64,000 bases of DNA from the NCBI GenBank assembly GCA_009760855.2, contig WPIO01000020.1, positions 4,661,501-4,725,500 on the forward strand. The letters run 5' to 3'. Shown piece after piece: positions 1-61,291 of this stretch. A model generated the notes under the pieces. It was not told the DNA's origin. It was given only the letters and a program-made list of their open reading frames with translations, and ran no database searches. Numbering within the stretch: position 1 is the first letter of the stretch; each line of letters begins with the position of its first letter. This DNA is from Cristatella mucedo (lineage: Eukaryota; Bryozoa; Phylactolaemata; Cristatellidae). The position numbers and the translations under genes were made by a program.

Positions 1-584
1 CGCTATCCATTGATTAGTGATTGCAAGGCAGAAAATTTCTTCGTCGAACAATTGTACTTTCACAGCTTCAATGTCATTTATCGTATCGAGTACTACGATA
101 TAAAAATCAAAGAGGTTTTTAGTATCCGTTGGTGCATTTCTTTTGAGGCATAGCAGACCTACCAGATGGCCGTAGCAGGTCAGCTGCGAAACTGAATCGT
201 AGTTGAGCTGCCATCGCCTGGCTTCTTTCCACGCTCCGGTCAATTGACCTTTAGTGGCTGGTTTAAGGGCCACGACGGATCGCTGTTCGTTTAGCCTCGT
301 GATGATGCTGGGACTCGCCGTAGAACTATCTCGATAAGCGACGCCAATGTGTTCGAAGATGTCTTTTAACTGATCACTACCGTCTAATGGCTCTCCAGCC
401 ATAAGTAAATCTCCATCGTCGTTACAGATTCTAATGCCTTGGAGGCCACAGGCAAACGCAATAATGTTGGGACTCAATAGTACTAAGTCGTGGCACTGGA
501 AATCGAGATGGACTATTCGGTAGCCAGTATCAGATGCTTTATGAAGATCGCTGCCTTCACTGTCATCTCCATGAGGATGTAGCT
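1..584 (-). CDS. Gene 1 last exon (partial), tandem paralogue family of unknown function
   Basis: The minus strand is open from 584 to the window edge with no stop, so the C-terminal part lies outside. The protein is clearly homologous to gene 3 (34561-35477): both share a C-x-D-L motif, an AFACG core, GIRICNDDGD, KGQLTGAWKE, RRWQLNYDSV and QLTCY. The exon is opened by a pyrimidine-rich acceptor ending CAG just above 584 and starts in phase 1, which fits the 7-nt exon 1 at 8922-8928 (reading Met-Ala-Glu). An alternative in-phase acceptor lies at 641/642 and would add 19 residues, mostly hydrophobic. I do not recognise the family. Function is unknown; no signal peptide is predicted with the main acceptor. 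That this is a real exon is strongly supported by conservation; the exact N-terminus is inference. Confidence 0.72.
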
Positions 585-1562
585 CTGAGTGAATAAAACG
601 AAAAGCAAATATAAAGATTATGAATACTAACACATCTAGCTCTGTAGCTGAGTAAAAAAGAGGCGCAGAGAAACATCTGGTATTTACAAGGAAAGCGTTC
701 CTGCTTGAGCTCAGTAAGTGAGACTCCAGTCGCCTAGGTCAATAAGTTAAGGAATGTTAGCTAGTTCAATGTGCAGACACAAAGAGAGAGAATTTTAAAT
801 AAAATCTTCGTAAACATGCGTTTAATCAAACCAAAAAACATTTTCTGTTTCACTCTAAAAGCTCTAAAGTGGGAGAGATTGCAATAGTAATCATCTAGGA
901 GGAGCCTGAATCGATTATCGTTCATACACGCCTCCATTTCTGACCACTGTCGCGTAACCACAACGTACCCCCTTATTATATCACTGGAAAACGTTGTGCA
1001 AGAAATTATTTTTTAACTAGGTTACTTGCTCTGGGATTTTAGATTTTCAGAATTCTAAATGGAACAAACTAGATACAGTGGCAGAGGAGCCAATTTTTTC
1101 ATATTTAGCGAGGGAAAGACGAAATATTGTTGATAAATGGTAGCATACAATTATAGAGCGTATTTTTAAATATAAAAAATTCACAAACCGCATGTGCCTA
1201 CGCCGTATGTTACATCTAAGTCGCGTAAAAAAGATGAACACAATCCGTTTTGTTTCAGCATTTGCGAGGTTCTAGTGACTGGTTCAAAGTTGGCTTATTC
1301 GTGATGGCACTGAATATCGCTGTTCACCGTATTTTACTCTTTGACACAATGCATGTCAAATCTAACCGTGTTATGCTCGCTGAAACAGAGCATTTTCCAC
1401 CAAGAATTCGGTCTAGGTTCCTTGTCAGCATATGTACAATTTCAGTAGAAGATTAAGTTGGCTCAAGTTCTCCCTGTTACTGTGCGAATGTGGAAAGGAC
1501 GGAATTTCTCGCTTTAATTAACAGAAATTTTACATACTACTACGGAGTCAGCATTCATGTGA

Positions 1563-1720
1563 GTGTATACAGACCTTATCGGGAATGCAGATTTTGGTAA
1601 GGTCTCTCTGCTTGGTTTACTTGATCTTGCTTCAGCAGTTTACACTATTGATCAACAAAACGTTCTCGAGAGCCTTTCATTTCGATTGGACTTCAATGGC
1701 ACTGATGCTGCTAAGCTACC
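1563..1720 (+). mobile_element. L2-like subfamily A fragment, reverse transcriptase core
   Basis: The translation contains a degenerate version of the RT block of the element at 57508-58833: GNADFGKVSLL for RNADMGRVSLL, then a decayed LLDLSAAFDTIDH. Only about 50 codons remain before homology ends. It is joined to a subfamily B fragment downstream. Confidence 0.6.
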
Positions 1721-1744
1721 ATCGCCATCTGCTCGGACTATGGA

Positions 1745-2540
1745 TGACGTGTTCGAAAGCTACCTAAATTTCGAATACTTCGCCAAGAAGACTGCTTTTG
1801 CAGCTAGCCATCACTTCCGATCTCCATCTGAGATTAGGTACTGTCTTCAACTGTGGCTTACAAAAGATTTAGCTAGCTCCTTAGATTTGTTTCGGCTGGA
1901 TTGTTGTAATTCCTTTTTGGCTGGGCTAGTGATGAAAACCACTAGGTCACTGCAGCTGGTATGAATATGCCTGCAAGACTAGTTTGGAAATCTCCGAAGT
2001 TTGACCACGTGTCTGATTTTCTAGAAGAGCTAAGATGGCTGTCGGCTGATCAACGAATACATGAGAAATTTCTCACACTGACGCCCAAGACCCACCATGG
2101 CTGGCTCCTTCCTTCATACCTAGCTGAACTGTTGAACCAGTTTCGGCCTCCCTATGCCCTCAGTTCCTGTATGGAAAATGAACTGTCTGTTCCGTTCCTC
2201 CAATTAAAGAACATTGGCCACATATGGTTTTACCCTCCAGGTCCTAGACAGTGGAACTCACTTCCACGACTCTTATCAACGACAACTACTCTCCCGCTAA
2301 TGTCTTGGCTGATAATTTCACACCGACCTGAGCTGCTATTTCCATGCTAGTCACTACTCAAACTACTCTGCTGACCTTGCTATGCTTCCCAAATTTTTCT
2401 GCTGTCTGAAATTAAGTCGTCTCACGGCTACCGAATTCATACCAAAAGCCGCCCAGTGAGCTGAAGAAAACTCTCCAGCGGAACGCCCACATTATCTTTC
2501 CGGCTTTTTGGAGTTACAGACGAAGGTAAACTACATAATA
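1745..2540 (+). mobile_element. L2-like subfamily B 3' fragment, decayed
   Basis: Two overlapping frames give the RT C-terminal region: ASHHFRSPSEIR, then LDCCNSFLAGL, MNMPARLVWKSPKF, SYLAELLNQFRPP and a degenerate version of GPRLWNSLP. These match the subfamily B copies at 42395-43160 and 62516-64000. The 3' end near 2510-2540 resembles the B untranslated end (ggagttacagacgaaggta). It carries a stop and a frame change, so it is dead. Confidence 0.65.
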
Positions 2541-2569
2541 TTAACAGCAATGCAATGGTGAGACCCTTA

Positions 2570-3420
2570 TCTCAGTGGGCGACGCTAAACTATTGATTTG
2601 GACCCTGAAATATTGTTTTGAACGGATAAAGATTGTCAGTGCAACAAGAGAATTATTGCGTGTCTCCATGCTTGGTCAACTTCTAGTCACAGTTTATCAT
2701 CTTACCTATGTTACATTCAATGGGAATATAATTTTTCACTTCTATGCTGATGACGCTAAGTGATGCCGTCGAATTTTGTAATCCTTGCCTTCTACATACT
2801 AAAATATCCCAGTTTCCATGCTGAAGTTATTGCGGACATTCAATTTTGGATGGCAGCAAATGTGCTCGAAATGAACGCTGATACATTCAACTTACTGGTT
2901 ACTGATGAACATAGTATGGCTGAGAAATTTGAAAGCCTAAAACTAAAAATAGGCCCTGCCAGCATATCTCCTGTTTAATCCGCCCGAAATCTAGGTGCCC
3001 AGTTCCCATGTGACACACTAGACGACACTATGTGCTCCACAGTCAGTTCATATTACTTTCAGCTACGTAACATCGCTACAATTCAGTCCTGCTTAGACAT
3101 GGATACTACATCCTCATTGGACCAAGCATTGGTGACATCTCGTCTCGGTAACTGCATCTTTCTGCTTGTTGGTGTACCGGTTGTGCTATCAGTCGTTTAC
3201 GTTTAGTGCACAAATCTGCAACTAGGCTTTTCTGTTGTAAAAATCGCAGTTGCCACATAACTACAGCTCTTGCCGACCTGCACTTGCTCCCAATGTAACT
3301 GCGTATCGACTTTAAGGTTTTGTCACTCACTCTCCCTTCATTATGTGGCTCCAGCCTACCTATCAGAACTGCAACCAAACGAGGCTAAGCATCATAAAGG
3401 CACTATACACAGGAATTATA
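2570..3420 (+). mobile_element. L2-like subfamily A fragment, decayed RT and C-terminus
   Basis: The translation shows SMLGQLLVTVYHL, then HFYADDAK, the RT catalytic YADD box. Downstream come WMAANVLEMNADTFNLLV and LKIGPASISPV, then a C-terminal region with stops. The order matches the subfamily A element at 55789-59042. Several stops and frame changes are present. Confidence 0.6.
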
Positions 3421-4574
3421 TAAATTATAAATTACCAATATTTCATTCATGGTCAGTAAATTAAGATTGATAAGACTCAAATTTCATGCAATCGATACTA
3501 AGAGGAGATTCCAATCCCATGCCTCGTGTTACTCAATCGTTTGCTGCGCCCTCGCAATAGTGTTTAATTTGAGATTTCACCTTTCAGGAGATTTGGCCAC
3601 AATGAGTGGTGTTTGATGTTCGTAGCTTCCTTTAGCTCTTAACAGAGGCGACCGAAAAAAAGCACACTGCACTCGTAGCTCTCTGGCCTATTACAGAATG
3701 ATCTTCTGAAAATCCAAATTCTCGTGAATATGATATGCAGAAACCAATTTATTTGGGACTTGTGAAGGGCCTGTCTGTTGCTTAGTTGACTGCCGGTTAG
3801 GAGATTACGTGCATATGGTATTCTGAACACTTCGAGCTGTGTCCCCGTGTGTCAGGGCCGAGACTGTAGATTCGCTTGCTGTTAGCAACTTCAAAACTAG
3901 TAATGATCATGCATGCATGTTTATAATCAATGTGGCAGTTGCTTTCACCGTTTGTAAATTAGTCTTTCACTAGCAAAACCAAGTCATAGCCCTTTTCTGG
4001 AGGCTCAGACGCCTCGCTTTCCCAGCCACAGGTCTCAAGCCACATCCAGTTCATTATCATTGTCTAGCCCTGCTGCGAATCGCTCTATCGTAGCCGTCAG
4101 GCCTGCTATAGCCCCGTCGGCCAATTTAACTCCGAACTTGGGAATTCGCGAAATATGCACAATAAGCCGCAAGTAACACATAACAAACTTAGTGACAACA
4201 GTATTGACGCATTCTCTTCAATCAAAACCTAGCTGAAATTGACTAATTGCCGGAACTTAATCGAAGCTATCCTGACAGGCTTCTATTCCGTCCATATCGA
4301 TTAAGCAATGAAACTAGGAGTCGTAATTGTTGAAATTATCTACCTCAATTTCAAGACCCTCTTGCGTTCTCACGAAAAGTTCCTGAGTTCTTCCTTTGAG
4401 TTCATCCGATAATAAGCGGATGCTGTGTACAGTAATTTGTCACCCCAGGTACTAATTCCTCATATGATTCCGACGTATGGAGACGTTCTGATTTAGTGAG
4501 CGATAAATGAATATTTACTCGTTAGTGCTGGTGTTAACATTAATTTTCATAATTTCACCAACGCCTTGGGCAGA

Positions 4575-5030
4575 CGTTTCTTAAGTGACTGACTCGTTAT
4601 CTCTCACGGCTCATGTGCAAAAAGTAAGTAAAAATAAGAGAAAAACCGTTAAACACAACGAAGTTTCTTCCACTAGTGCATGCTGTTATATCCTACCTAT
4701 ATGTCGTACGAACCTAAAATCCTGTGGAGACCTTACCTTTAGTTCCTATGCAAACTCTCTAAGACTGGAACTCACCCCAACTGACGTGACAACATCCTCT
4801 GTCTTGACGTTTAAAAAGATACTAAACACGCAACTGATGGTTTCACCATTCACCAGGTCCAACTAATTTGTCCTGCAAATGTTATGCGTCATGATATTGA
4901 GCTTGCTACAACTAACCATATTTACATGCTGACGCTGATAATTTTACTTCCTATCACATAATGCTTGTTAACATTCGCAAGTTAACATTAACCATTTTAT
5001 CCTGCTTCGTCGTCTGAATATACGTAAAGT
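4575..5030 (+). mobile_element. Old L2-like subfamily A 3' end, interrupted by the hAT transposon
   Basis: A short piece of endonuclease-like sequence (TDSLSLTAHV) is joined to an RT C-terminus reading RTNLKSCGD and TFKKILNTQL. A subfamily A 3' untranslated segment follows. The tail motif gtaaagtgcctagac is cut at 5038 by the hAT element and resumes at 7766 (atatatttatctctctcttggtgc), which fits the A tail when the hAT and one target duplication are removed. Confidence 0.6.
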
Positions 5031-5038
5031 GCCTAGAC
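5031..5038 (+). repeat. hAT target-site duplication, left (gcctagac)
   Basis: The 8-bp word gcctagac lies immediately outside the left terminus (CAGGG) and is repeated exactly at 7758-7765 outside the right terminus. Eight-base duplications are the rule for hAT transposons. Confidence 0.9.
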
Positions 5039-5433
5039 CAGGGATTTCCAGCACGTGGCCCGCGTGCCACAACCCGACCCGCCGAGGTCTTCTATGCGGC
5101 CCGCAACGTTATCCCAAAAATAGTTGTCACTCCATGTTTTTCGTTAATTTTTAATCATTACAAACGGCGATATAAGGCGCTGTGATGTACTTCACGCGTG
5201 CGTGAAGCGTGAAGGTGTCCGAATGGCTATTTTCGCGTGAAGGTAAGCGAATCGATTTATTTTGCTAGCCTTCATGTGAACATTTTGGCGTGAAGGGGTA
5301 ACATATTTGTGCTACAGCGGCGCCATTACGATCACATTTATAACGCTTCAGCAAGCGGAATTAACTGTTTCACACTGCGGATAGAAAAAACAGCCGTTTC
5401 TCAGCTGCTGCTGCACGAGCTGGAATCAATCAG

Positions 5434-5547
5434 GTAGGTTTTTCAAAAAAAAGGCATATTTCTCAACTTACTTACTAATACTAAAATATTGCTGTGATAA
5501 AATATAAATTAATCAATTCGTAACTTATCTGTTTTTTTATTTCACAG
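5434..5547 (+). other. Putative 114-nt intron in the hAT 5' leader
   Basis: A donor CAG|GTAGG at 5434 and an acceptor ttatttcacag ending at 5547 (after a T-rich tract) bracket a short AT-rich stretch. The ATG of the transposase follows the acceptor by six bases. This is inference from splice consensus only. Confidence 0.4.
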
Positions 5548-5553
5548 AGAAAA

Positions 5554-7355
5554 ATGGCGGCAACTGTGAATACTAGCAAAAAACAAAAAATTGACGCAGA
5601 AGAAAGACTTTTCAAAGCATCTTGGACTGTTGACTATTTTGTAATGGTACGCTTCGGTACGATAATGTGCCTAATATGCCATGAAACAATTGCCGTTGCA
5701 AAGGAGTACAATGTTAAGCGACATTTTACAACAAAGCATTGCGACAGGTACAACAGCCTGACTGGTCAACTTCGAATTGATCGCGTGAACTCGTTGAAAC
5801 AGAGCGTCATTGGACAGCAGTCATTGTTTGCAGCAGTCAGCAGCAAGTCTGAGGCTTCAACCGAAGTAAGTTTTTTAATAGCAGAAGCTATAGCTAAGCG
5901 GGGGGGGGGGAAGCGTTTTCCGATGGTGAATTTGTTAAGGAATGCCTCAGGCTGTTCACTGGTGTGTTAAGTCCAGGAAAGAAGTCAGAAGTAAAGAAAG
6001 TCAGTCTTTCTCATCAAGCGGTTGCGAGAAGAGTTGACGAGCTCGCATCCAACATAGAAGAAAGTCTCACGAAAAGACTTGCTGAATGCGAATTTTATTC
6101 TCTAGCGCTCGACGCAAGCACGGACAATAGCGATACGGCTCAACTGTTGGTGTTTGTACGCGGAGTCACAGGAAAGTTTGTCATAATCGAAGAACTGTTG
6201 GATATATGTTCAATGAAAGGCACTACAACGGGGACGGATATTTTGGATCAGGTCAAAAGGGTCCTCACAAAATTTAATCTTCCTGAAACTAAATTGATTG
6301 GTTTAACCACAGACGGAGCCCCTTCAATGACAGGTAGACACAATGGATTTGTATCTTTAATGGTAAAATCAGTACCTCACAAAATTGTCAGTCATCACTG
6401 CATCATCAACCAAGAACAGCTATGTGCAAAGGTCTTGAGCATGCGACATGTAATGGACTATATAGTTTCAACAGTCAATGTGATAAGGTCTCGTGCGCTA
6501 AACCACAGAAAATTTCAGGCTTTACTTGAAGAGTTGGGATCAGATCATTGTGATATTATTTATTTCTGCCAAGTCCGTTGGCTAAGTAGGGCAAACACAT
6601 TAGCCAGGTTTTGGTCACTTCGGGACGAAATAACATTTATGACAGAAAAGGGAAAAGATGTTGGCTTCCTCGATGACCAGCAGTGGCTGAATGACTTGGC
6701 TCTTTTGGTGGACATGACCAAACATCTTGCAGATCTTAATGTCAAACTCCAAGGTAAGGATCAACTGCTCCATAAAATGTATGAGTGTGTTGTCGCGTTT
6801 GTGCAAAAGCTGAAACTTTTCCAGAAACACTTAGACCAGAAGAAACTGTTACATTTCACAACACTAGCAACAAGATCGCCTGAAACGCTGGCTCATATGA
6901 AGTACTCCACTCTTGTTAGCAAATATGTTGATGAATTCGAAGAGAGTTTTCAGGATTTCCAGCAACATGCGGATGACATGAACATGATTAGTAATCCATT
7001 TAGTATTGATCGCTCTGATGCACCTGATGAATTTCAACTCGAACTAATCGAAATTCATAATGACAGCAATTTAAAAACTGCTTATGATCAGCATGACTTT
7101 GTTACCTTTTACAAGCAGTATGTTTCATCAGAGTCTTTTCCTAACCTAGCCAAACATTCTCGCAGGTATATTGCACTTTTTGGCAGCCCATATTGCTGTG
7201 AACAGCTTTTTTCCAGACTGAAAAATGTGAAAATAAAGACTCGATCCGTTCTCACAGATGAACATTTATCAGGAATCCTTAGAATTGCCACATCCACTGT
7301 TGCAGCAGATGTCGAATTTTTATGCAAACAGAAACATTGCCAAATATCTCATTGA
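5554..7355 (+). pseudogene. hAT transposase (BED finger), one frameshift
   Basis: The transposase cuts and pastes the surrounding element. The first frame (5554-5970) has an N-terminal BED-type finger: CLICHE near residue 45, then KRHFTTKHC. The second frame (5964-7355, 463 residues) carries the RNase-H-like core: LALDAST (first acidic residue), TTDGAPSMTG (second), VRWLSR, and near the C-terminus CEQLFSRLKNVKIK with the catalytic Glu and the dimerisation segment. The frames meet at an 11-G run, 5900-5910; continuing in the other frame just after the run recovers conserved hAT sequence, so a one-base indel explains the break. It could be a real mutation or a homopolymer sequencing error. It is most like the transposases behind vertebrate ZBED5/GTF2IRD2-type genes. 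Confidence 0.88.
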
Positions 7356-7757
7356 TGCCTGCAGTGCAGAAGACATTGAATACCTGTGGTATTTAATTAA
7401 TCCGAAGACATTATTATTATGTGAGTCCTTGTCATGTAATTTTGTAAGTTTTATAAGTTTCCGTCTTTATGTTATTAAAATAAAAATCCAAAAGTAAAAG
7501 ATTGGCCATAATATCAATCGATTTATTATTCAGGACACAATATTACATTTTTATTATTTATTATTTTTAATTATAATTATGCTAAAAAATACTATTGGAT
7601 TGCGGTTTATTTATTAAGTATAATAGTAATAGTCATACTAAATTACGATCTTATTTTCTGATGCGGTCAACTACGCCAATTTACATGTGGCCCCCCCCCC
7701 CGACCTTTTAAATTTTTGAAATGTGGCCCCCCAACGCAAAAAGGTTGGACACCCCTG

Positions 7758-7765
7758 GCCTAGAC
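7758..7765 (+). repeat. hAT target-site duplication, right (gcctagac)
   Basis: This is an exact copy of 5031-5038 directly after the right terminus ...acccctg. Confidence 0.9.
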
Positions 7766-7815
7766 ATATATTTATCTCTCTCTTGGTGCTATACAATTGC
7801 AGTTTATATATTATT

Positions 7816-8345
7816 AAGTCGTGGGCACCAATGCTCTCCCTTTGAGTCATCATTCTATGGCTCCAGCCTATCTGTCAGATATACTACCCCATCAGGCTAA
7901 GCATCGTACCACCTGCTTTTCGGAATCCGACAGTCTAGAAATACCTCATACAAACCTTAAATCCTTCGGAGACCGTGCATTTAGTTCATATGCTCCCAAA
8001 GCCTGGAACTCCCTCCTGACCTGCGTCAGAACATCCCCTGACCTGACCACATTCAAAAGGAACCTAAAAACACACCTATTTAGGACAGCATTTAGTGGGT
8101 CCCTGTGATTCGTCCTTGATGTGCTTATGCGTGCTGACACTGTGCATGCTGCCACTAGCCACATTTGCATGCTGACCCTGTGCATGTCACCCCTAACCAT
8201 ATTATTCATTTCGTTTGTTTTTCAAGCATGATTTTACTTACCATTCAATTGCATTTCACTTTACAGCAAATGTAAAGCGCCTAGAGAGAGATTAAGTTCT
8301 CTGAGGGCGCTTTATCAAGTGAATTATTATTATTATTATTATTAT
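7816..8345 (+). mobile_element. L2-like subfamily A 3' fragment (type A2)
   Basis: The frame 7821-8108 reads the conserved RT C-terminus: HSMAPAYLSDILPHQAKHRTT, NLKSFGDRAFSSYAPKAWNSL, then TFKRNLKTHLFRTAFSGSL and a stop. The 3' untranslated region and hairpin tail follow (aaagcgcc ... ggcgcttt), ending in (ATT)n at about 8328-8345. It is 5'-truncated, as usual for non-LTR insertions, and appears young. Confidence 0.85.
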
Positions 8346-8921
8346 CGTGCTATTAGTACAGGGTCTGCTAAATTTTTTGTAGACATTTAAAGATCTTATT
8401 TATTTTTTAAAAGTAAATAACAATGATCCATATAAAAATGTATATCGGCTTGACAACATAACTCCTAATAATTGTTTTTTCATTTCTTCGTAGAAGTTCA
8501 AAAAGCTTATTCGTTCGTGGCAAGCAAATTAAGCTTTTTTTGCAGCTCTATGAAGCCAACGAATAGGGCTTTAGAAAAGCCACGCTGGTACACCACAAGA
8601 ACTCGCTGTGCACCGATACCTCACTGCAAAGCGACAGGAAATGCCAAAGACGCCTGTAAAATTAAATATTTACAGCCAACAGTGGTGTATGAGTTACCGC
8701 TGTTTTTATTACATTTTGCACTAAAGCTCACAAGCATTACGAGCCTAACCGCGGTCGCTTACTCGCTTTCCTTCTCTCACGGGTTAATAGCTTAGTATGT
8801 CCTAATGACCGTTAAGTGACTAAATTGACCGTGGACACGACTAGCCCACAAGTTCAAAACTACGTTGTAAGAGCAAGATAATAAGATAGGGTTAATTTTA
8901 GAGTGCCGAGAATGAACTTAC

Positions 8922-8928
8922 CAGCCAT
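8922..8928 (-). CDS. Gene 1 first coding exon (ATGGCTG, 7 coding nt)
   Basis: Read on the minus strand the sequence is ATGGCTG followed at once by the donor GTAAGTTC. It leaves phase 1 (Met-Ala-G|), exactly what the acceptor at 584 needs. The same arrangement recurs upstream of genes 2, 3 and 4. The leader upstream shares blocks with gene 2 (a ccggttcg block and an acggtccgttgc block) and is alignable with gene 3 over several hundred bases. The true 5' end of the exon is not visible. Confidence 0.6.
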
Positions 8929-9055: not shown

Positions 9056-9061
9056 CACGTG
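9056..9061. promoter_or_regulatory. CACGTG (E-box-like) upstream of gene 1
   Basis: The palindrome lies 128 bp upstream of the gene 1 ATG. The corresponding site in gene 3 is at almost the same distance (132 bp) in an alignable context. Its role is inferred from conservation only. Confidence 0.35.
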
Positions 9062-21710: not shown

Positions 21711-21716
21711 TTTATT
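21711..21716 (-). terminator. Polyadenylation signal AATAAA, gene 2
   Basis: AATAAA on the minus strand, 88 bases beyond the TAG stop at 21804-21806. Confidence 0.6.
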
Positions 21717-21803: not shown

Positions 21804-22726
21804 CTAATCAATCACGTCATCGAAGAAAATCACATTCCTTTCGAAATCGCGCCCGTATAGGAAGGCAAATGCGCGACAGTTGCCGTATCTCCAAGTTGAA
21901 AAATTTATAACATTGAAGTCCATAAGCTGCGCAGGTGATTTAAAAAAACATTTCTGTCTGTTTTCACCATCAGGACGCATTTTCCAAATAATATGACTAT
22001 CAACTTCGGCAGCGTATAAAAACAACGAGTCTGAATCAAAGTGGATAGCTGAGATGTCATACTCGATGGCTGTTTCCCATAACTTAGTCCCTTGATTGTC
22101 GAAAAAAATTATGCAATCAGACTTGTCTGCCATCGTAGCTATAGCTATTAAGTCGTGGCACACTGCAAGGCTGTAGACAGCTTTCTTGCCGATGAGTTGG
22201 TTAACTAAGCAAACGTGAGCAGTCATATCGAGCACAACGATAAAGCGACTGGAAGGCGACTCAGCTTCAGTCAGGACATTTCTCTTGAGGCATACGAGAC
22301 CGACGCAATCTTCGAAGCAGGTCAGCTGCTCCACCGAATCGTATAAAGACTGCCAGCGGTAGACTTCACCCCACGGCCCAGTCAGGTAATCATGTATGTT
22401 TGGTTTCAAAACTACGATTGCTCTACGACCACTTAACCACGTGACCATGCAGGACATGTCTTGGCTGATGCCATCCCAAAGAGCACCGACAAAATCTGTG
22501 GTGTCATTCTGGTTATCGACGGTAAGTGGTGGCATCAACGTTGAAAGTGCCACTCCATTGTCGATACAAATTTTTATGCCGTCACAGCCACAGGCAACTG
22601 CGATGACGTTTGGACGCAAAAATACTAACTCGCGGCACTGAAACTGGAGACGAACTACCCGGTAATTGGATCGAGGTGCTTCGCTCGTACCTCCGTTCTC
22701 ACTGTCATTTTCTTTGGAATATATCT
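21804..22726 (-). CDS. Gene 2 last exon, tandem paralogue family of unknown function
   Basis: The exon opens after a pyrimidine-rich acceptor (ttattgctttcag) in phase 1 and closes with TAG. With the 7-nt exon 1 at 30497-30503 it gives Met-Ala-Glu-Ile-Tyr and a protein of about 309 residues. Family landmarks: FQCREL, VAVACGCDGIKIC, PPLTVD, VTWLSGRRAIVVL, QLTCFED, GLVCLKR, then ISAIHFDSDSLFLYAAEV and FSTWRYGNCRAFAFLYG. The recurring hydrophobic beta-strand pattern with D-x-D/G turns suggests a beta-propeller-like fold (inference). No signal peptide or membrane segment is visible in the mature model. Upstream of the acceptor the frame stays open and hydrophobic for about 18 codons, which I attribute to the pyrimidine tract. 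Function unknown. Confidence 0.8.
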
Positions 22727-32475: not shown

Positions 32476-32479
32476 CAGC

Positions 32480-35667: not shown

Positions 35668-35812
<145 letters not shown>

Positions 35813-36270
35813 AGAATTTTAAGTAGAATCATCGTAAACACGTGTTTAATCAAGCCGAGAATATTTTCTGCTTCACTTTAAAAGCCCGTAGATAGAAATC
35901 CGTCCGATAGTAATCAGTCAGGAGGCTAAATCAGTTAATAAACATATAGGCCATCATTGCTGACCATTATCGCTTAAATGGAAAATTGGCCATTAGTGCA
36001 GTAAGTGGTACACAATCTGCGTAGGTACAAACATGCTTTAACAGGGTGACTCGCTCTGCGATTCTAGATGTCTGCAATTCCTAATGGAGCAGGTCAACTA
36101 GATACAGTAGCAGAAAAGCCAATATTTTCATATTTAGGGAGGAAAAAGTGACCTGTTAATGAAAAGCTGTACTGAACAATTATAGTGTGTATTTTATAAC
36201 ATAAAAAATGCATCAAACCTAAGCATACAAGGTAAATTACATACAAAAAATTGCTGATTTAAAAGTACCC

Positions 36271-36410
36271 TTTGTTTAGCGACAGAAGAGTCTTTACAAC
36301 TATCACCACTGCTTGCAGCTGCGATAAAGAATTACCCACCACCAGATTCGAACCCACAACAGGACCAAGTTAGTGAAAAGCAACTGCTTACCTAGTGTGC
36401 CATCATGGCT
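36271..36410 (-). mobile_element. tRNA-derived SINE
   Basis: On the minus strand an A box (TGGCACACTAGG, 36391-36402) and a B box (GGGTTCGAATCT, 36344-36355) have RNA polymerase III promoter spacing. A body containing ggtgatagttgtaaagactcttctgtcg follows. The body recurs in 50877-51025, so this is a dispersed family, not a single tRNA gene. Confidence 0.6.
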
Positions 36411-37135: not shown

Positions 37136-37144
37136 CGAGCGTGC

Positions 37145-37290
37145 AACCTTAAATCGTACGTAAACCGCACCTTTAGTTTGTACAATCCGATTCCTAGAAT
37201 TCACTCCCGACTGACATCAAGACATCCTACGTCTTGAAGATACTTTAAAAGAAGCTAAGACACATTCCATTGCTAAAGCACGTTGCAGGT
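37145..37290 (+). mobile_element. Short L2-like subfamily A C-terminal fragment
   Basis: Degenerate plus-strand sequence for the NLKS...F..Y.P...NSLPT..RTSP segment, seen as words such as aaccttaaatcg, ttagtttgta and actcccgactga. It lies between two minus-strand elements. Confidence 0.4.
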
Positions 37291-37335
37291 CATCGTGAAT
37301 TGGTTTTTTGCGTGAATATTTGTTGCGACAGCACA

Positions 37336-40153
37336 TAATAAAAATAATAATAATAATGCGCTTGATAAAGCTCCCTCACAGAACTCAATCTCTCTCTAGG
37401 CGCTTTACATTTGCTGCAAAGGGAAATGCAATTGAATGGTGAGTAATATCTTGCTTGATAAACAAACAACATGAATAACATGGTTAGGGTGACATGCACA
37501 GGGTCAGCATGCAAATGTGGTTAGAGGAAGCACGCACGGTGTCAGAACGCATAAGCACATGAAGGACGAATCAAAGGGACACACTAAATGCTGTCTTAAA
37601 TATGTGTTTTTTAATTTATTTTAAATGTGGTTAGGTCAGGGGATGTTTTGACGCAGGTTGGGAGGGAGTTCCAGGCTTTGGGAGCATACGAACTAAATGC
37701 ACGATCTCCAAAGGATTAAGGGTTTGAACGAGGTATTTGCACACTGTTGGATTCCGAAAAGCAGGTAGTGCAATGCTTGGAATGATGAGGGAGTATATCT
37801 GAGAGATAGGCTGGAGCCAAAGAATGAAGTGACCTAAAAGTTAACGACAAAACCTCGAAGTCAATCCGTCGCTTGACTGGCAGCACGTGCAGGTCGGCGA
37901 GAAGTGGTGTAAAGTGGCAACTGCTACGCTCATGACCGACAAGCCTAGCTGTGGAGTTATGCACCAGCTGCTATCGCCTGAGCGCACATGCTGGTAGGCC
38001 AGACAGCAGTGAGTTACAGAAGTCGAGACGGGATGTCGCGAATGCATGGACCAACTTAGACGTGCTATCCTTATCTAAACAAGCCAGAATTTTAGCAATG
38101 TTATGAAGCTGAAAATACGCAGATTTGACTGTGGAGCTGATATGGTCGTCTAAAGAGAGGTCGCTTTGAGCTGATTCAACTGGAGATAAGCTCGCAGAGC
38201 CAATTTTGAGCGTCAGCCTTTCCAATTTGTGAATCACACTCGGTTTGCCCATAACTAGTAAGTAAGTTTTATCATCGTTTAGTTTTAGAAAATTTGCTGC
38301 AATGCATGTGCGAATCTCATCAATGCATGCTGCAAGTGAATTGAGTGAATTTGAGGTGCTCGAAGTCTAGGAGGGATCAAAGCAAAGGTACAACTGAGTG
38401 TCATCTGCATAGAAGGGAAAGCCTAGATTGTGCTTGGCAATCACATTAACAAGAGTGAGAGTATAAACCGTGACAAGAACCGTACCTAGCACGGAGCCAT
38501 GTGGGACCCCATATTTCAGAGGTACCTCGAATGATCTTTGTCCATTCATGTCAATACTCTAGAGACTCCCACTGAGATAGGACCTGAACCACTGCAGATT
38601 AGTCCAGTGATGCCCAGGCGAGATGAGACGCGCTCTAGAAGAACTTTGTGATCGATGGTATCAAAAGCTGCCGAAAGATCGAGCAAAACAAGCAGAGACA
38701 CTCTACCCATGTCTGCATTCCTAAGTAGGTCGTTGTATACCCTAAGCAATGCTGACTCTGTGGAGGGATTAGCTCTAAAGCCAGACTGGAACTTATTAGC
38801 AAGGTGAGAGGTTTCGATATTCTGTTCAGCTGGTCCGCCACGACCCGTTCCAGTGTCTTTGATAGGAATGGTAGAATGGAGACTGGCCGGTAGTTGCTTA
38901 AGTTCTCTTAGTCTAGTATCACTTTCTTGAGAATTGGCCTGACTTCAGTTTTTTTGAAAGGTGCTGGGACATCACCTGAGGCTAATGACATATTAATTAT
39001 GTTAGTTATGCATGGCAGCAGCAGATCAATGCAACGTAGGAGCAGGACAGTGGGAATAGGATCCAGAGGACTTGTTGTCTTCTTTGATTGGGATACGAAC
39101 ACTAGTATCGTGCTTAAATGTAGACATTGAGGTGTAGCCAGGAATTGTGGAACAGCATTCTAGTGGGGATGTTGTCACTGCAGGAATGGATCCTCTGATC
39201 TTGCATATCTTCTGCACAACGAATCGAGAGAAGCGATCGGCTAGATCATCACAAGGATCATTAGGTAAGGAGCTAATATGGGAGCGGTTGAGGAGATGGT
39301 TTATCGTCGACATCAGCATTTTTGGATTGTGCATCTGTGATTAAACAATGTTTCTATGGAAGCTAGACTTGGCCTTTGCTAGGATCGAATGGTATGACCT
39401 ACAGTAGTATTCATATGCCTGTCGATTAACAATCAGTCTAGATCTTGTGTATGCTTTTTCAAGCTTTCGCTTAGCAGACCTTGCTAATTTAATGTCTGTG
39501 GTAAACCATAGGCCGTCTGGGCGAGGGCGCAAAGTGCGCTTTGTCAGCGGTGATAACTCGTCGAGCGTGTGAGCTAGTGTCGTGTTGTAGCTATGTACCA
39601 ATGATGACAGATCGGAGGGGGACTGAGCAACAGAGGTGAAGTAGATATTATCGCACGGTCAGCATCGATGTCAAGGGTCTTGCGGTTTCGCGATTCACAG
39701 GCTATTTTAGCGGAGGAGGTGGGCACACACTGTAGATTGAATGCAATCTGCATGTGGCCAGATAAGCAGGATTCAGTAATAATTGGTGATGACAAAGTGC
39801 AGTTGAATGCGAAAATCTGGTCGAGTGTGTGACCCTTGAGGGCCATGCACATGAGGCACAAGAGACTAAGAGTCAGTCAACGCACGAAATTCGGTGCAGA
39901 AAGCGTCAAATAAGTTATCAAAGTGAACGTTGAAATCACCCATAACGAGGAAGGATTGATTTATTGCACACATAATTGAAATGAGATTGGAGAAATCTGA
40001 GATAAAAGAGGATTTGGTACCTGGTGGGCGATAGACTACTGGCACTATCGGTAGCTTCTTTTCGGATGAGACCAAGACAATTGATTCAAAAGACTGCTTC
40101 GAGGGTACTGCAAATAGCTTGAAGTTGAATTTCGAACGCACTATAATAGCAAC
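37336..40153 (-). mobile_element. L2-like subfamily A element, 2.8 kb, 5'-truncated and mutated
   Basis: The 3' end at 37336-37355 is an (AAT)n run (as read on the plus strand) with the A hairpin tail after it. Going upstream on the minus strand are the RT C-terminus, a decayed FYADDTQLYLCFDPS, a damaged GVPHGSVLGT, LLVLLDLSAAFDTIDH, the linker LDPIPTVLLLRCIDLLLP, and endonuclease blocks VYRPPGTKSS, FLVMGDFNVHFDN and TLDQIF. It is cut off near 40153 inside the first endonuclease block. Several frameshifts and stops exist, including TAA where the 55789 copy has CAA, two codons before the position at which that copy has its own stop. Confidence 0.88.
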
Positions 40154-40957
40154 TGCATACTATCACAAACCATATATTACATGTTGACACTATATGTCAC
40201 CTCCAACCACATTACGCTTTTTGATATCGTGCATTTTACGACAAAACCATTTGATAATGCTTGCTTGTCATCATGTATAAAGTGCCTAGGAACAGATCCA
40301 GTTTGTTCAGAGTGCTATGCAATTGATGTATTATTAGTATTTTTGTATTGCATACGTAGTCACGATCGTCATTTAATTCCTAATGATATACGTGCAGATC
40401 CAAATCAAATCTATTCGCAGATATTAAATGGTCTTTCAGTTGTTTTTAAGACAATGATACAACAATATTAGCACACTTAAATATGAATATTGGTATTACA
40501 GCATGCAGTGTTATTGCTAGATCGCTGGAAATAATTTGATAGCTTGAGTCATTTGTATTCAGGCAAATAAATAAGGCTTACAGCTCTCACGTCACTGAGT
40601 CAGGCTGCAAAGACGCCAAGCTGATGCATCATGAGAACTCGCAGTGAAGAAGTACTTCAGTAAACAGTGACAAGAGCAGCCAAATAACGCTTTGAAAGTA
40701 GTGTATTTACAGCCTAATGAGAGGTTTACGAATTTGCGCCGCGTTCGTCTTACGTGTCACGCTAAATCCTGCTAGTCTTACTAGCCGAACGATAGTCGCT
40801 TACTAGTTTACTGTATATCGTCGGTTGAACGCCTAAGATATTCGTAGGACCATTGAGTGATTATATTGACCGCGGACAGCACATCCCACAAGTTCGAAAC
40901 TATTTTGAAACATCAGAAAACTATGCTTTCCCTTTAACGGGCCCATAATCAACTCAC

Positions 40958-40964
40958 CTGCCAT
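40958..40964 (-). CDS. Gene 3 first coding exon (ATGGCAG, 7 coding nt)
   Basis: ATGGCAG followed by the donor GTGAGTTGA on the minus strand, phase 1, matching the acceptor at 35477. Confidence 0.6.
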
Positions 40965-41095: not shown

Positions 41096-41101
41096 CACGT
41101 G
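41096..41101. promoter_or_regulatory. CACGTG (E-box-like) upstream of gene 3
   Basis: Same context (gtcacgtgctgaagact) and nearly the same distance from the ATG as in gene 1. Role inferred from conservation only. Confidence 0.35.
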
Positions 41102-53770: not shown

Positions 53771-53776
53771 TTTATT
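53771..53776 (-). terminator. Polyadenylation signal AATAAA, gene 4
   Basis: AATAAA on the minus strand, 40 bases beyond the stop. Confidence 0.6.
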
Positions 53777-53815: not shown

Positions 53816-54765
53816 CTAACGCTTACCTACAAATAATACGATTGTGTTAGCAGCGTCTTTATTAATCGTAACAGTATCTTGATACATAACAGCGAGTGCT
53901 AGTTTGTTATTGTAGCGCCAAGTTGAAACTCTTACGGGACGTTGATTCATTAGAGCATCTTGCGATTTGAGAAGGACTTTGAAATCTCCTTTACCGGTGC
54001 GATTAATTTCTATCACCATTTTCATCTCCTCATTACATAGGTACACAGCTGACCCGTCCACAGAAAAGCAAACGTCGGATAGGGGATAAAGGTAATCTCT
54101 TTTCCACAATGGAATGCCGCTGTGGCTGAAAGCTGTCACGAGAAATCTGGGTTTACCTTTAGTCACCATCACTATCATTTCCGGATCGATTGTGAGTCCC
54201 CACACGTGTACTTTGCCGATGTCTAGCCTAAAAGACTCGACGCCATTGATGGAATTAAGTAAGACCAGGCTTCTATCATCTGGCGGAAATGTGTCATTAT
54301 TATGCTTCATTCGGTCCTTTTTGCAGCAAACATAGACGATCAGATCGCAGAAGCAAGCCAATCTCTCCACAACTTCATTGCCTAGGGGATAGTGGCCGGC
54401 TTCGTTCCAGACACCAGTTAGCTGACTGTTTGTTGGCTCCAAGACCACAATTTCGCTTGTGGCCAGGACGGTGGTGATTATGCGGGCGTTATCTGAGCCT
54501 ACCCTCAAAGAAGCACTGACAATATATGTAAATTCCTCTGTCGGTGGCTTCCATTTTGACAGCTGTACTCCGCTGATGCCAAAAATTTGCAAACCTTCAT
54601 AACCGCAAGCAAATGCAACGGCTTCGTGGCTCAGTAATGCTAAATCATAGCACCGGCCTGGAAACACTGTAGCCGATGAAGGCACCGGAGTCGCATTAGG
54701 CGCTTTTCCTAGCCAAACATCTGTGATATTCAGAGCTGGGGGAGAATTGCTTTGCAGTTGGTTTT
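53816..54765 (-). CDS. Gene 4 last exon, divergent member of the tandem family
   Basis: Opens after the acceptor tacttttccttttacag in phase 1 and closes with TAG. With exon 1 at 61285-61291 it gives Met-Ala-Glu-Asn-Gln and about 318 residues. Landmarks: CYDLALLSHEAVAFACGYEGLQI, WKPP, IVVLEP, QLTGVWNEAG, RLACFCDLIVYVCCKK, LSDVCFSVDGSAVYLCNEEM and VSTWRYNNKLALAVMYQ. It shares the AFACG and QLTG.W signatures with genes 1 and 3 and the STWRY signature with gene 2, but is otherwise the most diverged. It has two adjacent cysteine clusters (LACFCDLIVYVCC) absent from the others. A beta-propeller-like fold is plausible but inferred. Function unknown. Confidence 0.78.
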
Positions 54766-55935
54766 CTGTAAAAGGAAAAGTAGGCAACACATCAGTATTT
54801 TACGTTAGATGATACAAGCATGTTAAATATAAAATGTGGACTCGAAACGGTTGAGACAGCCGTGATAGGATCATTCTTATCAATAGCCTTGGTACCAGTT
54901 TAAGATTCCTACTTGGAAGCTTCGAAATTGCGAATGTATAATCAGAATGACAGCTGTCATCGCTTAAGAATGTTCGCCGTGACATCGACTTTGCTACCAA
55001 CATGCGGAACTGTTATTGAAATAATGCAAATGGACTCTAATCGATGTTATTCGAGTATTATTGTAGATTATAAGTGCTGGATCATGTTTCGCAAGTTGGC
55101 CATCCATGTGTGGCACACCTTGTAGACTCAGTGCCAGGTTGTCAGTTTTAACTCATTGCTCAAAGTAAGCTGTGAGCGGACCTTTGGGAAATATTCAAGG
55201 CGGCATTATTTTGCATACCGAGTCAAGCTCCAAAAATACTTGCTCTCAATTCTTACATATTCATAGAATTTGCGATTGAGTGTTAATGCTAAAACACTTC
55301 TTTCAGATCTATTAAAGAGGCAAAAAAACAACACGTTTAAGACACCCAGCTCGAAAGCAATTGATTTCTAACGGTAAAATTCTCAATTTCAGCATTTGCA
55401 TATCAAAAAGGAATTACTCAGCAGTGCATGTGTAATTTTTGCGAGAAGCTTATATGAGCCAATTCCCCAGTTTGGGTGTAAAGCAATTGGAAATAATGTA
55501 GTGGCGTAGGATGGAACGCAGGACCTACTATGAAATTAGTAATGAACTAGCAATTCATACGTTGATAATCCCCATTCTTAAGTATTTTAATTAGGTAAGA
55601 TAACATTAAGCTCATTAAGATTTATTAATGAGAGCGAGAACAGATAAAGAACTATTTAAAGGTAAATGACTACAGGTGATAGTGCAATTGAACTTTTCTA
55701 GGGTGCTGCTGCCAGCGAGACTGGGAAGCATAGCAGTTAATCTGCCAAGGTTTTGTGAGCGGACAAGGTTTCTTCTTACTGACCCTAACTATGCATTAAC
55801 AAAAGGAAAGCACCCCGTAGCCACCGCGGTGGCCGGAACCGCAAGCTTAGACGCTGCTCGTTTGGTATTCCTAGCATTGTCTCGAACCGCTTAGCACGCT
55901 CCCCCGCATGCGTCACTGTAAATCTCTCAAACTTA

Positions 55936-57450
55936 GTGGTCATCAGGCCTGTTGGAACCCAATCGGCCAGACTTAACGCTTGCCTTTGGAATCCTCGCTC
56001 AATGTGCAATAAACCTCTAGTAATAAACGACCTTATTTCTGAAAATGGTATCGACCTGCTCGCCCTAACTGAAACTTGGCTGAAATCGATAAACTGCCCG
56101 ACAATTAAAGACGCTACTCCATCTGGTTTCACGTTCTTTCACACCCCTAGATCAATCAAAACTGGAGGTGGAGTTGCTATGATCGTGCGCTCGAAATTCA
56201 ACTTCAAGCCATTTGCGGTACCCTCGAAGCAGTCTTTTGAATCAATTGTCCTGGTCTCACCCGAAAACAAGCTACCGATAGTGGCAGTAGTCTATCGCCC
56301 ACCAGGTACCAAATCCTCCTTTATCTCAGATTTCTCCGATCTCATTTCGATTCTGTGTGCAAGAAATCGATCCTTCCTCGTTATGGGTGATTTCAACGTT
56401 CACTTTGATAACTTATCTGACGCTTTCAGCACCGAATTTCGTACATTGACAGACTCATTATCTCTTGTGGCTCATGTGCATGGCCCTACCCACATCAAAG
56501 GTCACACACTCGACCAAATTTTCTCATATAACTGCACTTTGTCATCACCAGTTATCACCAAATCCTGCTTATCTGACCACATGCAGATCTCATTCAATCT
56601 ACAGTGTGTGCCCACATTCTCCTCTAAAATAACCTGTGAATCGCGAAACCTCAAGACCCTTGACATCGATGCTGTCCGTGCGAGCATATCTGCTTCACCT
56701 TTGCTGCTCAGTCCTCCCTCCGATCTGTCATCACTGGTAGATTGCTATAACACGACACTAGCTGACACGCTCGACGAGTTTGCACCTTTGACAAAGCGCA
56801 CTGTGCGCCCCCGCCCAGACGGCCTATGGTTTACCACAGACATTAAACTAGCCAAGTCTAATAAACGAAAGCTTGAAAAGGCATACAAAAGATCCGGACT
56901 AACTGTCCATCGACAGGCATATAAAGACTACTGTAGGTCGTACCAATCGATCCTAGCAAAGGCTAAGTCTAGCTTCTATAGAAACATTGTTGAATCACAG
57001 ATGCACAATCCAAAAATGCTGATGTCGACAATAAACCATCTCCTCAACCGTTCCCAGGTTAGCTCCTTACCAGACGATCCTTGTGATGATCTAGCCGATC
57101 GCTTCTCTCGATTCTTTGTGCAGAAGATAGACAAAATCAGGGAATCCATCCCTGCGATGACAACCTTCCCACTAGAATGCTGTTCCTCGGTTCCTGGCTG
57201 CGCCTCAATGTCTGCATTTAAACAGGTCACCAGTGATGTAGTCCTAAAGCTCGTATCTCAATCAAAGAAGACAACAAGTCCACTGGACCCTATTCCCACT
57301 GTCCTGCTCCTACGTTGCATCGATCTGCTGCTGCCATGCATAACGGACATCATTAATATGTCATTAGCCTCAGGTCAGGTCCCAGCACCTTTCAAAAAAG
57401 CTGTAGTCAGGCCACTTCTCAAGAAAGCTACACTAGACCAAGAGAACTGA
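55936..57450 (+). pseudogene. L2-like endonuclease domain and linker
   Basis: AP-type endonuclease, which nicks the target to prime reverse transcription. Visible blocks in order: LNACLWNPRSM, LLALTETWL (catalytic Glu), GGGVAMIVRS, VVYRPPGTKSS, FLVMGDFNVHFDN (catalytic Asp/Asn), TLDQIF and CLSDHMQI (catalytic Asp-His). The linker to RT has TSPLDPIPTVLLLRC and PFKKAVVRPLLKK. The frame stops at TGA (57448-57450). The frame continues upstream without an ATG to 55789. In the related minus-strand copy the same codon is TTA, so the stop is probably one substitution. Confidence 0.88.
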
Positions 57451-58833
57451 AGCAACTACCACCCAGTCTCCCTTCTACCATTCCTATCAAAGACACTGGA
57501 ACGGGTCGTGGCAGACCAGCTGAACTCGTATATCGAAACCTCACACCTTGCTAGTAAGTTCCAGTCTGGCTTTAGAGCTAATCACTCCACAGAGTCAGCA
57601 TTGCTTCGGGTATACAACGACCTACTTAGGAATGCAGACATGGGTAGAGTGTCTCTTCTTGTTTTGCTCGATCTTTCGGCAGCTTTTGATACCATCGATC
57701 ACAAAGTACTTCTAGAGCGCCTTTCATCTCGCCTGGGCATCACTGGCACTGCTCTGCAGTGGTTCAGGTCCTATCTCAGTGGGAGACTCCAGAGTGTTGA
57801 CGTGAATGGACAAAGATCATCTGAAGTACCTCTAAAATATGGAGTACCTCAGGGCTCTGTGCTAGGTCCGGTCCTTTTCACCGTTTATACTCTCCCTCTC
57901 GCTGATGTGATTGCCAAGCACAATCTAGGCTTTCACTTCTATGCGGATGACACTCAGTTGTACCTTTGCTTTGATCCCTCCCAGCCTTCGAGCACCTCAA
58001 ATTCTCTCAACTCACTTGCTGCATGCATTGATGAGATCCGATCATGGATGGCAGCAAATTTTCTAAAACTAAACGATGATAAAACTAACTTACTAGTTAT
58101 GGGCAAACCTAGTGTTATTCAGAAATTGGAAAGGCTGACTTTCAAAATTGGCTCTGCCAGCATATCTCCAGTTGCATCAGCTCGAAATCTAGGTGTCATA
58201 TTCCAAAGCGACCTCTCATTAGACGACCACATCAGCTCCACAGTCAAATCAGCCTATTTTCAGCTTCATACCATTGCTAAAATTCGGGCTTGTTTAGATA
58301 AGGATACCACGTCCAAGTTGGTCCATGCATTCGTGACATCTCGTCTCGACTTCTGCAACTCACTGCTTACTGGCCTACCAGCATGTGCGATCAGGCGATT
58401 GCAGCTGGTGCAAAACTCTGCAGCTAGGCTTGTCTGTCGTGAGCGTCGCAGTTGCCACATTACTCCACTTCTCGCCGACCTGCACTGGTTACCAGTCAAG
58501 CAACGGATTGACTTCAAGGTTTTGTCGCTCACTTTTAGGTCTCTTCATTCTATGGCTCCAGCCTATCTTTCAGATATACTACCCCATCAGGCAAAGCATC
58601 GTACCACTCGCTTTTCGGAATCCAACAGTCTAGAAATACCTCGTACAAACCTTAAATCCTTTGGAGACCGTGCATTTAGCTCGTATGCTCCCACAGCCTG
58701 GAACTCCCTCCCGACCTGCATCAGAACATCCCCTGACCTGACCACATTTAAAAGAAACTTAAAAACATACCTATTTAGGACAGCATTTAGTGGGGTCCTT
58801 GTGATTCGTCCTCGATGTGCTTATGCGTGCTGA
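57451..58833 (+). pseudogene. L2-like reverse transcriptase domain (same frame after the stop)
   Basis: Copies element RNA into DNA at the nick. The blocks are complete: SNYHPVSLLPFLSKTLE, FQSGFRANHSTESALL, LLVLLDLSAAFDTIDH, YGVPQGSVLGPVLFTVYT and the catalytic FYADDTQLYL, then WMAANFLKLNDDKTNLL and the long C-terminal region with LDFCNSLLTGL and AWNSLPTCIRTSPDLT. An ATG-less start follows the TGA. At the 3' end an extra G near 58795 shifts the usual stop, replacing the final SL with about a dozen residues. Otherwise intact. Confidence 0.88.
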
Positions 58834-58975
58834 CACTGTTCATGCTGCCACTAACCACATTTGCATGCTGACCCAGTGCATGTAACCCCTAACCATGTTA
58901 TTCATTTTGTTTGTTTTTCAAGCATGATTTTACTTACTATTCTATTGCGTATCACTTTGCAGCAAATGTAAAGCG

Positions 58976-59028
58976 CCTAGAAAGAGATTAAGTTCTCTGA
59001 GGGCGCTTTATCAAGTGCAATATTATTA
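58976..59028 (+). repeat. Conserved 3' hairpin of subfamily A
   Basis: Outer arms aaagcgcc and ggcgcttt pair exactly; inside, agaga pairs with tctct around ttaagt. The same structure closes the copies at 7816, 20738, 26215, 46243, 46975 and, on the other strand, 37336 and 61081, and in weakened form the SINE at 49470. Such an end is the likely recognition signal for the element's RT (known for this class of LINE). Confidence 0.75.
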
Positions 59029-59289
59029 TTATTATTATTATTAACCTTCACGTAAAGAGTTTTATAATTTAAGGTGGAATGTTAGTTTTGCATGAACGTT
59101 AAATGTTTGCATTGACCTCCCTAGTTTACTGAAATTTCTAAATCTTTTGAAATTCAGAGGTATAACGTAGGTTCGATGTATACATCCTTCTATAGCACAC
59201 GATTCGGCTAACAGTGTCTTTTAAAGTGAACGTGTACTTAATCAACGGATTTTACTTGTTATGTAAGTTAGGAGGCTTGTAAAGACCAG

Positions 59290-59720
59290 AGAGACGTATA
59301 TGGAACTGCTGCATAAGTTTCAGCCTGTTCGAGCCCTCAGGTCCTGTGGGGACATTAAATTAGCTGTTCCATTCTATCTCTTAGAGACCGTTGGCGACAA
59401 AAGCTTTGGCTCTGCAGGTCCTAGACTGTAGAACTCGCTTCAACAATTCTTAAGCAACGACATCTACTCTCCTGCTGCCGACTTAGCTCATCCGTTTCAG
59501 CGGTCCTGAGCTGCTACTTCTATGCTACTGACTACCTCAACTGCTCTCGTGACTCTGCTATGCTTCCCACTTACTCTTTGTTGAGTGAGATGAACTTTGT
59601 TGGCTATCGAATACGTACCGAAAGCCACTTAGTCTGTGAGTGGTCTATACAAAACTCTCCTGCGTCTTTTCATGGCTTTGTGGAGTTATAGACAGAGATA
59701 CATAGACTCTACGGGAGACG
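59290..59720 (+). mobile_element. L2-like subfamily B 3' fragment
   Basis: Plus-strand sequence for ELLHKFQPVRALRSC, LAVPFYLLETVGDKSFGSAGP and the B 3' region, ending tggagttatagacagagatacat near 59705. Stops interrupt the frame. Confidence 0.65.
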
Positions 59721-61080
59721 TTAAAAGTCAGAAGGGCGACTAAAGAAAACCGCGGCCAAGATCTTCTGAATGATTGTAGCCTCAAAATAGCCAAATGCTT
59801 TCTCAGTCAGCAGCTCGTCTTTTCTTTAATTATTCGTGAAGGTCAGAGCAGATGTACGCAGGGGATGTTCAAGTCTGCAGGACGGGGGGGGGAATCACAA
59901 CTTAATCGATAATGAGTCCAGTGTTCATTTTAAGCATATGAAGTAAATAAATATTTCAAAGATAGCTTAACGCGAGTTATAAATGTCATTCAGTGAGGTC
60001 TGTGCGGTTTTTACCCAAATAAAAACCACTTGACAATAGGATCTCTCTCTTCTCCCCAAAAACTTCAAGGATAATGATATAAGTGATATCTTATAGTTTT
60101 TCTAGCCTTCAGTTACATAAAAAAACAATTAAAGCGGATCGGGGTTGCCACATATACGCTAGCACTATTACAGTTTTCACTAACTCTCTCACCTAGTTAG
60201 TTGAAATATAAATGTTATCTTCTCATGCTGCCGCTCTTTCTGTATTTTTAACTATATACTGTTCATCTATTATACTTGCAAGGTTTAGGACGTCGAGCCC
60301 TCAGGTTCTATTGCAGGTACCAATACGTGCATAAAAACTACCAGCTGGTCTCAAGATGGCCATTCGGCCTAATTAGATTTAGGGCTAAGCTAGTATTTTA
60401 AGCACTACATTGAAATATTCCTAGCCGTAATAAATTCAAAGCAGTACCTAGTGGGTGTTGTCATTGGTAATGTTTATTTTTTTTACAAAATCAAAGTGCG
60501 TCAATGAAAAGTATGTTCTCCAAAGATAATTAAACTGCTCATTTTCATAAACACACGCGATTTCCAAAGCTACTAGTCGCAGCTAATTCAACAATCGCAG
60601 ACGGAAGCTGCAGCTTATCGTAGCTTCGGGCCATTTGAGTCTTTTTAAGTACTAATTAGCTCGCAAGGCTGCTAGCACGGTCGAGTGAGACAGCTTTCCT
60701 GACCTGGAAGTGAAGCAGTGAAGCAGCCGAGCTTTAAACCTAGCAGCAGCCGAAACCAAAGACAAGCATTAGCAATAGACGACTAAATAACTAAAATGGT
60801 GACTGTCCTCTGAGGTCAGCTTAAATAATGTATCCTATTGGTGAACAAAGAATTGGCAGTGACCACTGGCCAGCTGCTGGAGAGGCGTATTGCTGTATAT
60901 ATAGCATTATCGTAGCATATATTTAATGCTCAAGTAAAATTCATAAGCTTTTTCATTGAAAATGCGCGGCGAGGACTGTCCCGGAGAAAGCATTTTATCC
61001 AAACACGTGCTCAGCTCCCTTGTCTTGTTTGGCTCAAACAGAAGTGCATGGCATTTCATTACACAGATTTACATTTATAT

Positions 61081-61212
61081 AATAATAATAATAATAATAT
61101 TGCACTTGATAAAGCGCCCTCAGAGAACTTAATCTCTTTCTAGGCGCTTTACATTTGCTGCAAAGTGATACGCAATAGAATAGTAAGTAAAATATAGAAT
61201 AGTAAGTAAAAT
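61081..61212 (-). mobile_element. Minimal L2-like subfamily A tail (type A1)
   Basis: As read on the plus strand, an (AAT)n run at about 61081-61098 is followed by the hairpin tail and a gctgcaaagtgatacgcaatag segment. The 5' end of the copy carries a 19-bp tandem duplication (atagaatagtaagtaaaat, 61175-61193 and 61194-61212). It lies about 70 bp from the donor of gene 4. Confidence 0.8.
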
Positions 61213-61284
61213 ATAGCGGTAGCAATGCGGGAACATATATACGCAACTAGCTCTTATCAAAAAGGCGTCTGAAGATTAACTTAC

Positions 61285-61291
61285 CAGCCAT
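61285..61291 (-). CDS. Gene 4 first coding exon (ATGGCTG, 7 coding nt)
   Basis: ATGGCTG followed by the donor GTAAGTTAATC on the minus strand, phase 1, matching the acceptor at 54765. The leader (ccattctgaggttcttcag ... ttgccgaagtc) resembles gene 3 more loosely. Confidence 0.55.

Follow-up and report, generated by a model that had tools for sequence, protein, structure and literature searches.

The window analysed here, a 64,000-nucleotide stretch of the genome of the bryozoan Cristatella mucedo (C122:4661501-4725500, contig WPIO01000020.1; genome 572 Mb in 688 contigs), contains four related genes on the minus strand. Each is predicted to begin with a coding exon of only seven bases, ATGGC(A/T)G, which is followed by a GT(A/G)AGTT donor and found once per gene, 5.5-8.3 kb upstream of a large exon whose acceptor is preceded by a pyrimidine-rich tract (Table 1). 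The exon joins are phase 1 in all four genes. The large exons are open over 305-316 codons, and the predicted proteins of 309, 309, 307 and 318 amino acids (genes 1-4) begin with MAELHPHGDD, MAEIYSKEND, MAELHPDGDE and MAENQLQSNS, respectively. Coordinates, frames and computed sizes thus confirm the original prediction, made from this DNA alone, of four seven-base start exons joined in phase 1 to last exons to give Met-Ala-Glu and proteins of about 307-318 residues. The AFACG-, QLTC- and STWRY-like signatures it described do occur in the translations, but not each one in every protein. A polyadenylation signal had been credited to three genes on a search for AATAAA only; allowing A[A/T]TAAA, all four genes have one, at 258, 87, 163 and 39 bases downstream of the stop codon. 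The last exon of gene 1 extends 339 bases beyond the left end of the window, with its stop at C122:4661162. Sequence blocks reported to be shared by the leaders of genes 1, 2 and 3 are real and are also common to relatives outside the window. The 14-mer formed by start exon and donor is seen four times in the window against 0.002 expected on both strands under a first-order Markov model, and chance was rejected as its explanation. Genome-wide, the exact 14-mer has 29 matches compared with 14 for a backward-pattern control, and 8 of the 29 fall within 0.39 Mb of C122.

Leaders and large exons, hereafter bodies, are also paired outside the window. Protein search identified five gene-4-type loci that are 57-100% identical, and a DNA search of the genome with a gene-4-type leader, u2, returned five places, one per locus, each on the same strand and 2.6-6.5 kb upstream of the body. 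On the plus strand, the 14-mer itself is present 2.6-3.9 kb ahead of gene-4-type bodies at C122:5015790, 5031184 and 5049135. The gene-1 leader matched itself and one further place, C122:5548217-5548457, which is 10.2 kb upstream of the sole distant intact gene-1-type body (C122:5537025-5538032) and carries ATGGCAG followed by GTACGTT in register. A first look at the nearest 6 kb had found no start exon for this body; the leader search therefore located one where the model requires it, and the gene fits the start-exon model. Of three further copies of the upstream group with an intact ATG, two fit the model and one has no acceptor AG. At C122:5001349 lies a copy interrupted by in-frame stops, with GTGGCTG in its start exon where ATGGCTG is expected. 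We also considered translation from within the large exon. The first in-frame Met falls at residues 28-154 in all eight bodies examined from clade A, the group of the window genes, with no in-frame ATG before residue 28, and an internal start was rejected. The predicted split-gene structure is thus backed by tests outside the window, namely leader-body pairing and the loss of the ATG in a broken copy.

The proposal that start codon and promoter-like leader are separated from the body by a repeat-filled intron is likewise supported. DNA recurring elsewhere makes up 41, 84, 88 and 77% of the introns of genes 1-4 (approximately 334 kb searched; some paralogous intron is included), and a long interspersed nuclear element (LINE) lies in intron 4. 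Between genes 1 and 2 is a minisatellite-like block of 3.2 kb (17350-20583) with long open stretches in all three plus-strand frames.

Table 1. Features of the four-gene cluster, in window coordinates
Feature	Positions	Strand	Detail
Gene 1 coding exon 1	8922..8928	-	ATGGCTG, donor GTAAGTT; ATG at 8928
Gene 1 intron	585..8921	-	8337 bases
Gene 1 last exon	1..584	-	acceptor at 584; continues outside window
Gene 2 coding exon 1	30497..30503	-	ATGGCAG, donor GTGAGTT; ATG at 30503
Gene 2 intron	22727..30496	-	7770 bases
Gene 2 last exon	21804..22726	-	acceptor at 22726; includes stop codon
Gene 3 coding exon 1	40958..40964	-	ATGGCAG, donor GTGAGTT; ATG at 40964
Gene 3 intron	35478..40957	-	5480 bases
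Gene 3 last exon	34561..35477	-	acceptor at 35477; includes stop codon
Gene 4 coding exon 1	61285..61291	-	ATGGCTG, donor GTAAGTT; ATG at 61291
Gene 4 intron	54766..61284	-	6519 bases
Gene 4 last exon	53816..54765	-	acceptor at 54765; includes stop codon
CACGTG, gene 1	9056..9061	-	133 bases upstream of ATG
CACGTG, gene 3	41096..41101	-	137 bases upstream of ATG
CACGTG, gene 4	61521..61526	-	235 bases upstream of ATG
A[A/T]TAAA, gene 2	21711..21716	-	87 bases past stop
A[A/T]TAAA, gene 3	34392..34397	-	163 bases past stop
A[A/T]TAAA, gene 4	53771..53776	-	39 bases past stop
LINE in intron 4	55870-58830	+	domains Exo_endo_phos and RVT_1, separated by one in-frame stop
Weak hAT-type open reading frame in intron 1	5901-7352	+	DUF4371 match below cut-off
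Decayed family fragment between genes 2 and 3	32182..32706 (C122:4693682-4694206)	-	five stops; E 9.2e-4

The window genes had been taken for a four-gene family; they are instead part of a superfamily. A genome search with a protein of a second group, clade B, at E up to 0.001 gave 158 matches, 150 of which are listed (132 of 336 first-look candidates were scored), and the matches listed include at least 129 loci on 59 contigs. Among the matches listed that cover 240 or more of 298 residues, 74 have no stop and 13 do; 91 loci in the same list cover 240 or more residues and are free of stops throughout, some of these loci being in several pieces. A query with the protein P0003 gave 88 genome matches at E up to 1, although a good many of the weak ones could have arisen by chance. 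Clades A and B are only about 20% identical. An intact divergent relative, L025 (C122:4741716-4742450), lies beside the cluster with a 327-amino-acid frame and a candidate phase-1 acceptor, and no start exon was found for it within 3 kb. Two equal-scoring members on opposite strands, 5 kb apart (C549:1983670-1984557 and 1988920-1989807), are possibly a recent inverted duplication. Scanning one genome for each of 84,980 prokaryotic species with P0003 found no relative, in a scan that reaches close relatives only. No matching family is named in those parts of the literature on precedents that we consulted, which is not proof that it is unpublished.

Clade B has a tiny start exon of its own. It consists of eight bases, ATGCTAAG, followed by GTAA, with a phase-2 end and introns of 0.3-0.6 kb. 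In aligned upstream DNA, ATGCT(A/T)(A/C)G then GTAA is present in all ten clade-B members, and in nine of the ten the body acceptor reads TTTTGTAG then C TCT GC, also phase 2, so that the join would give Met-Leu-Ser in most members. The pattern RACKTYYATGCTAAGGTAA has 8 exact matches genome-wide and none in the backward control; with up to one mismatch, the numbers are 20 and 2. For sixteen of these 20, a family match among those listed follows on the same strand no more than 1.2 kb downstream, and 6 of the sixteen do not belong to the ten members from which the pattern was drawn. Loci L041 and L046 have candidate phase-1 acceptors. In L042, L043 and L048 the large exon has a Met close to its beginning, and the small coding exon is therefore not universal; at L043, TCACGTGAC stands 163 bases ahead of an in-frame Met in the large exon, perhaps an intronless form. 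No start exon was found in about 0.9 kb of DNA upstream of two members belonging to a third group, whose identity to the clade-B query is 46-50%. In these predicted gene structures, tiny start exons occur in more than one clade of the family, and the long repeat-filled intron is local to the window cluster, not family-wide.

It is possible, if somewhat doubtful, that each clade acquired its start exon separately, through two gains of an intron near the start codon; this would rival a common origin of the two exons and not the gene model. Seven bases and phase 1 in clade A as against eight bases and phase 2 in clade B would fit two gains, as would the Met near the large-exon start of L042, L043 and L048. 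Both clades, however, combine a tiny start exon with one large exon and, in most leaders, an upstream CACGTG.

This hexamer occurs within 500 bases upstream in 8 of the 10 leaders from clade A and 7 of the 10 from clade B (one leader had only 240 bases of upstream DNA), compared with 13.8% of 500-base stretches drawn at random from the window, and in 15 of the 20 leaders it is 132-235 bases upstream of the start codon. CACGTG is the E-box of USF/Myc/MITF-type promoters, which these leaders resemble in carrying it ahead of the start. Because the leaders are related by descent, the enrichment is only suggestive of a promoter role for the box.

The bodies are under constraint: the ratio of nonsynonymous to synonymous substitution rates (dN/dS) is 0.35-0.72 in all 17 pairs tested and 0.35-0.65 in all ten clade-A pairs. 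It is very unlikely that the bodies are unexpressed retrocopies or decaying pseudogenes. A stop is present in 13 of the 87 near full-length stretches among the matches listed, and in the copies at C122:5001349 and 4726843, but the window genes keep their large exons open, leaders and splice sites are kept, and an upstream intron and leader in common would not be expected of retrocopies. With dN/dS below 1 in every pair tested, pseudogenes were rejected as a general explanation. Trans-splicing occurs in some animal phyla, and as the cis join is predicted from the DNA only, the large exons might obtain their 5' ends from a spliced leader or another nearby exon, with the ATGGC(A/T)G sites incidental, but one-to-one leader-body pairing in clade A, loss of the ATG in the decayed copy at C122:5001349, matching phases in both clades and the lack of an early ATG in eight clade-A bodies make this highly improbable.

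The protein matched no curated model in the searches made. Among 24 members, no Pfam match was better than E 0.00082 (PQQ_2) and no NCBIfam model was reached; for eight proteins scored against curated families, every score was below the cut-off, with no curated propeller family matched above it. A profile from alignment A2 (24 members picked from the best matches, eight invariant columns) matched 5c2v_B, the hydrazine synthase beta subunit, with a whole-sequence E of 2.2e-5, and PpgL and BamB more weakly. One segment of this profile (228-262, about SPDGRVLYLAV..NVVTAI) aligns to five weak stretches of 5c2v_B. We take the 5c2v_B, PpgL (6igb) and BamB chains to be beta-propellers, of the kind named YVTN, PQQ or NHL. 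The likeness to these propellers is a repeated motif matched by one profile segment, whereas the overall match of the family is weak and falls short of the curated models. The weak blade-motif matches suggest a beta-propeller, without proving the fold. Most likely, we infer, the protein is an intracellular beta-propeller that binds a partner.

Several observations weigh against this interpretation of gene and product. The copy at C122:5051719 keeps its ATG and an open body but has no AG at the expected acceptor, and therefore would not splice by the start-exon model; it also has no A[A/T]TAAA within 400 bases and is probably freshly broken or differently spliced. The clade-B member L044 likewise has no AG at the acceptor position, and 4 of the 20 RACKTYYATGCTAAGGTAA matches have no family match within 1.2 kb among the matches listed. 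A cluster leader at C122:4656448, which also carries the 14-mer, has no intact body, with only decayed family fragments nearby. Close pairs show no drop in similarity at the splice sites, since their intron flanks resemble each other about as strongly as their exons do. Constraint is only moderate: dN/dS is 0.41-0.72 in those pairs, 8 of 17, whose dS is below 0.3. CACGTG is absent from two of ten clade-A and three of ten clade-B leaders, and related leaders are not independent. As for the fold, the Pfam result above counts against it, no single 5c2v_B stretch is significant alone, and self-comparison for internal repeats is weak (best off-diagonals E 0.0024 and 0.0033). Other family remnants lie at C122:4726843, which holds a stop, and C122:4658557-4658980, and the overall pattern of copies looks like birth-and-death evolution.

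A separate observation concerns L054 (G000:C688), a mitochondrial contig with 44% G+C and the gene order cox3, atp6, cox1, nad3 (named by eye). In its cox1 locus AGR is read as Ser, ATA as Met and TGA as Trp, a code that points away from cnidarians, flatworms and tunicates. ARAGORN in its bacterial setting found no tRNA in 4.3 kb.

Taken together, our results make it quite probable that these are ordinary nuclear genes with spliced transcripts, members of one large paralogous family, each with a leader and seven-base coding exon, one phase-1 intron, a single large exon and a propeller product. The exon pieces, their frames, their genome-wide pairing, their conservation and their constraint are evident in the sequence; the splicing of start exon to body is predicted from them. 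Transcription would start in the conserved leader, usually with a CACGTG box, and the first exon would comprise a 5' untranslated leader plus the seven coding bases. The single intron, which contains no coding sequence of the gene and is repeat-filled in the window cluster, would then be removed, and the large exon would supply the remainder of a protein of about 310 amino acids starting with Met-Ala-Glu. Leader, intron and body would duplicate together as one unit, so that leader groups and body groups correspond one to one.

Many eukaryotic genes have minute start exons, among them many ribosomal protein genes, which similarly have leader and start codon on exon 1 and the remainder beyond the first intron. 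The family described here differs in having two lengths and phases in two clades, and nearly all of its coding sequence in one exon. The unusual feature is that a large family, for which no curated model was matched here, has a minute start exon in both of two clades that are about 20% identical, the length and phase differing between them. Gene finders easily miss coding exons of seven or eight bases located kilobases from the remainder, and family members may therefore be annotated startless, be given an incorrect start or be overlooked entirely. More speculatively, and with little confidence, a promoter and start-codon cassette of fixed design (CACGTG, leader, seven or eight coding bases, donor) may have been carried along as a new family of beta-propellers expanded widely within a single animal lineage; many paralogues would then share one switch, with their bodies diversifying, as in a recognition or immune repertoire. 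The size of the family makes it a test case for joint inheritance: whether leader, start exon and body have been passed on together as a unit while copies multiplied.

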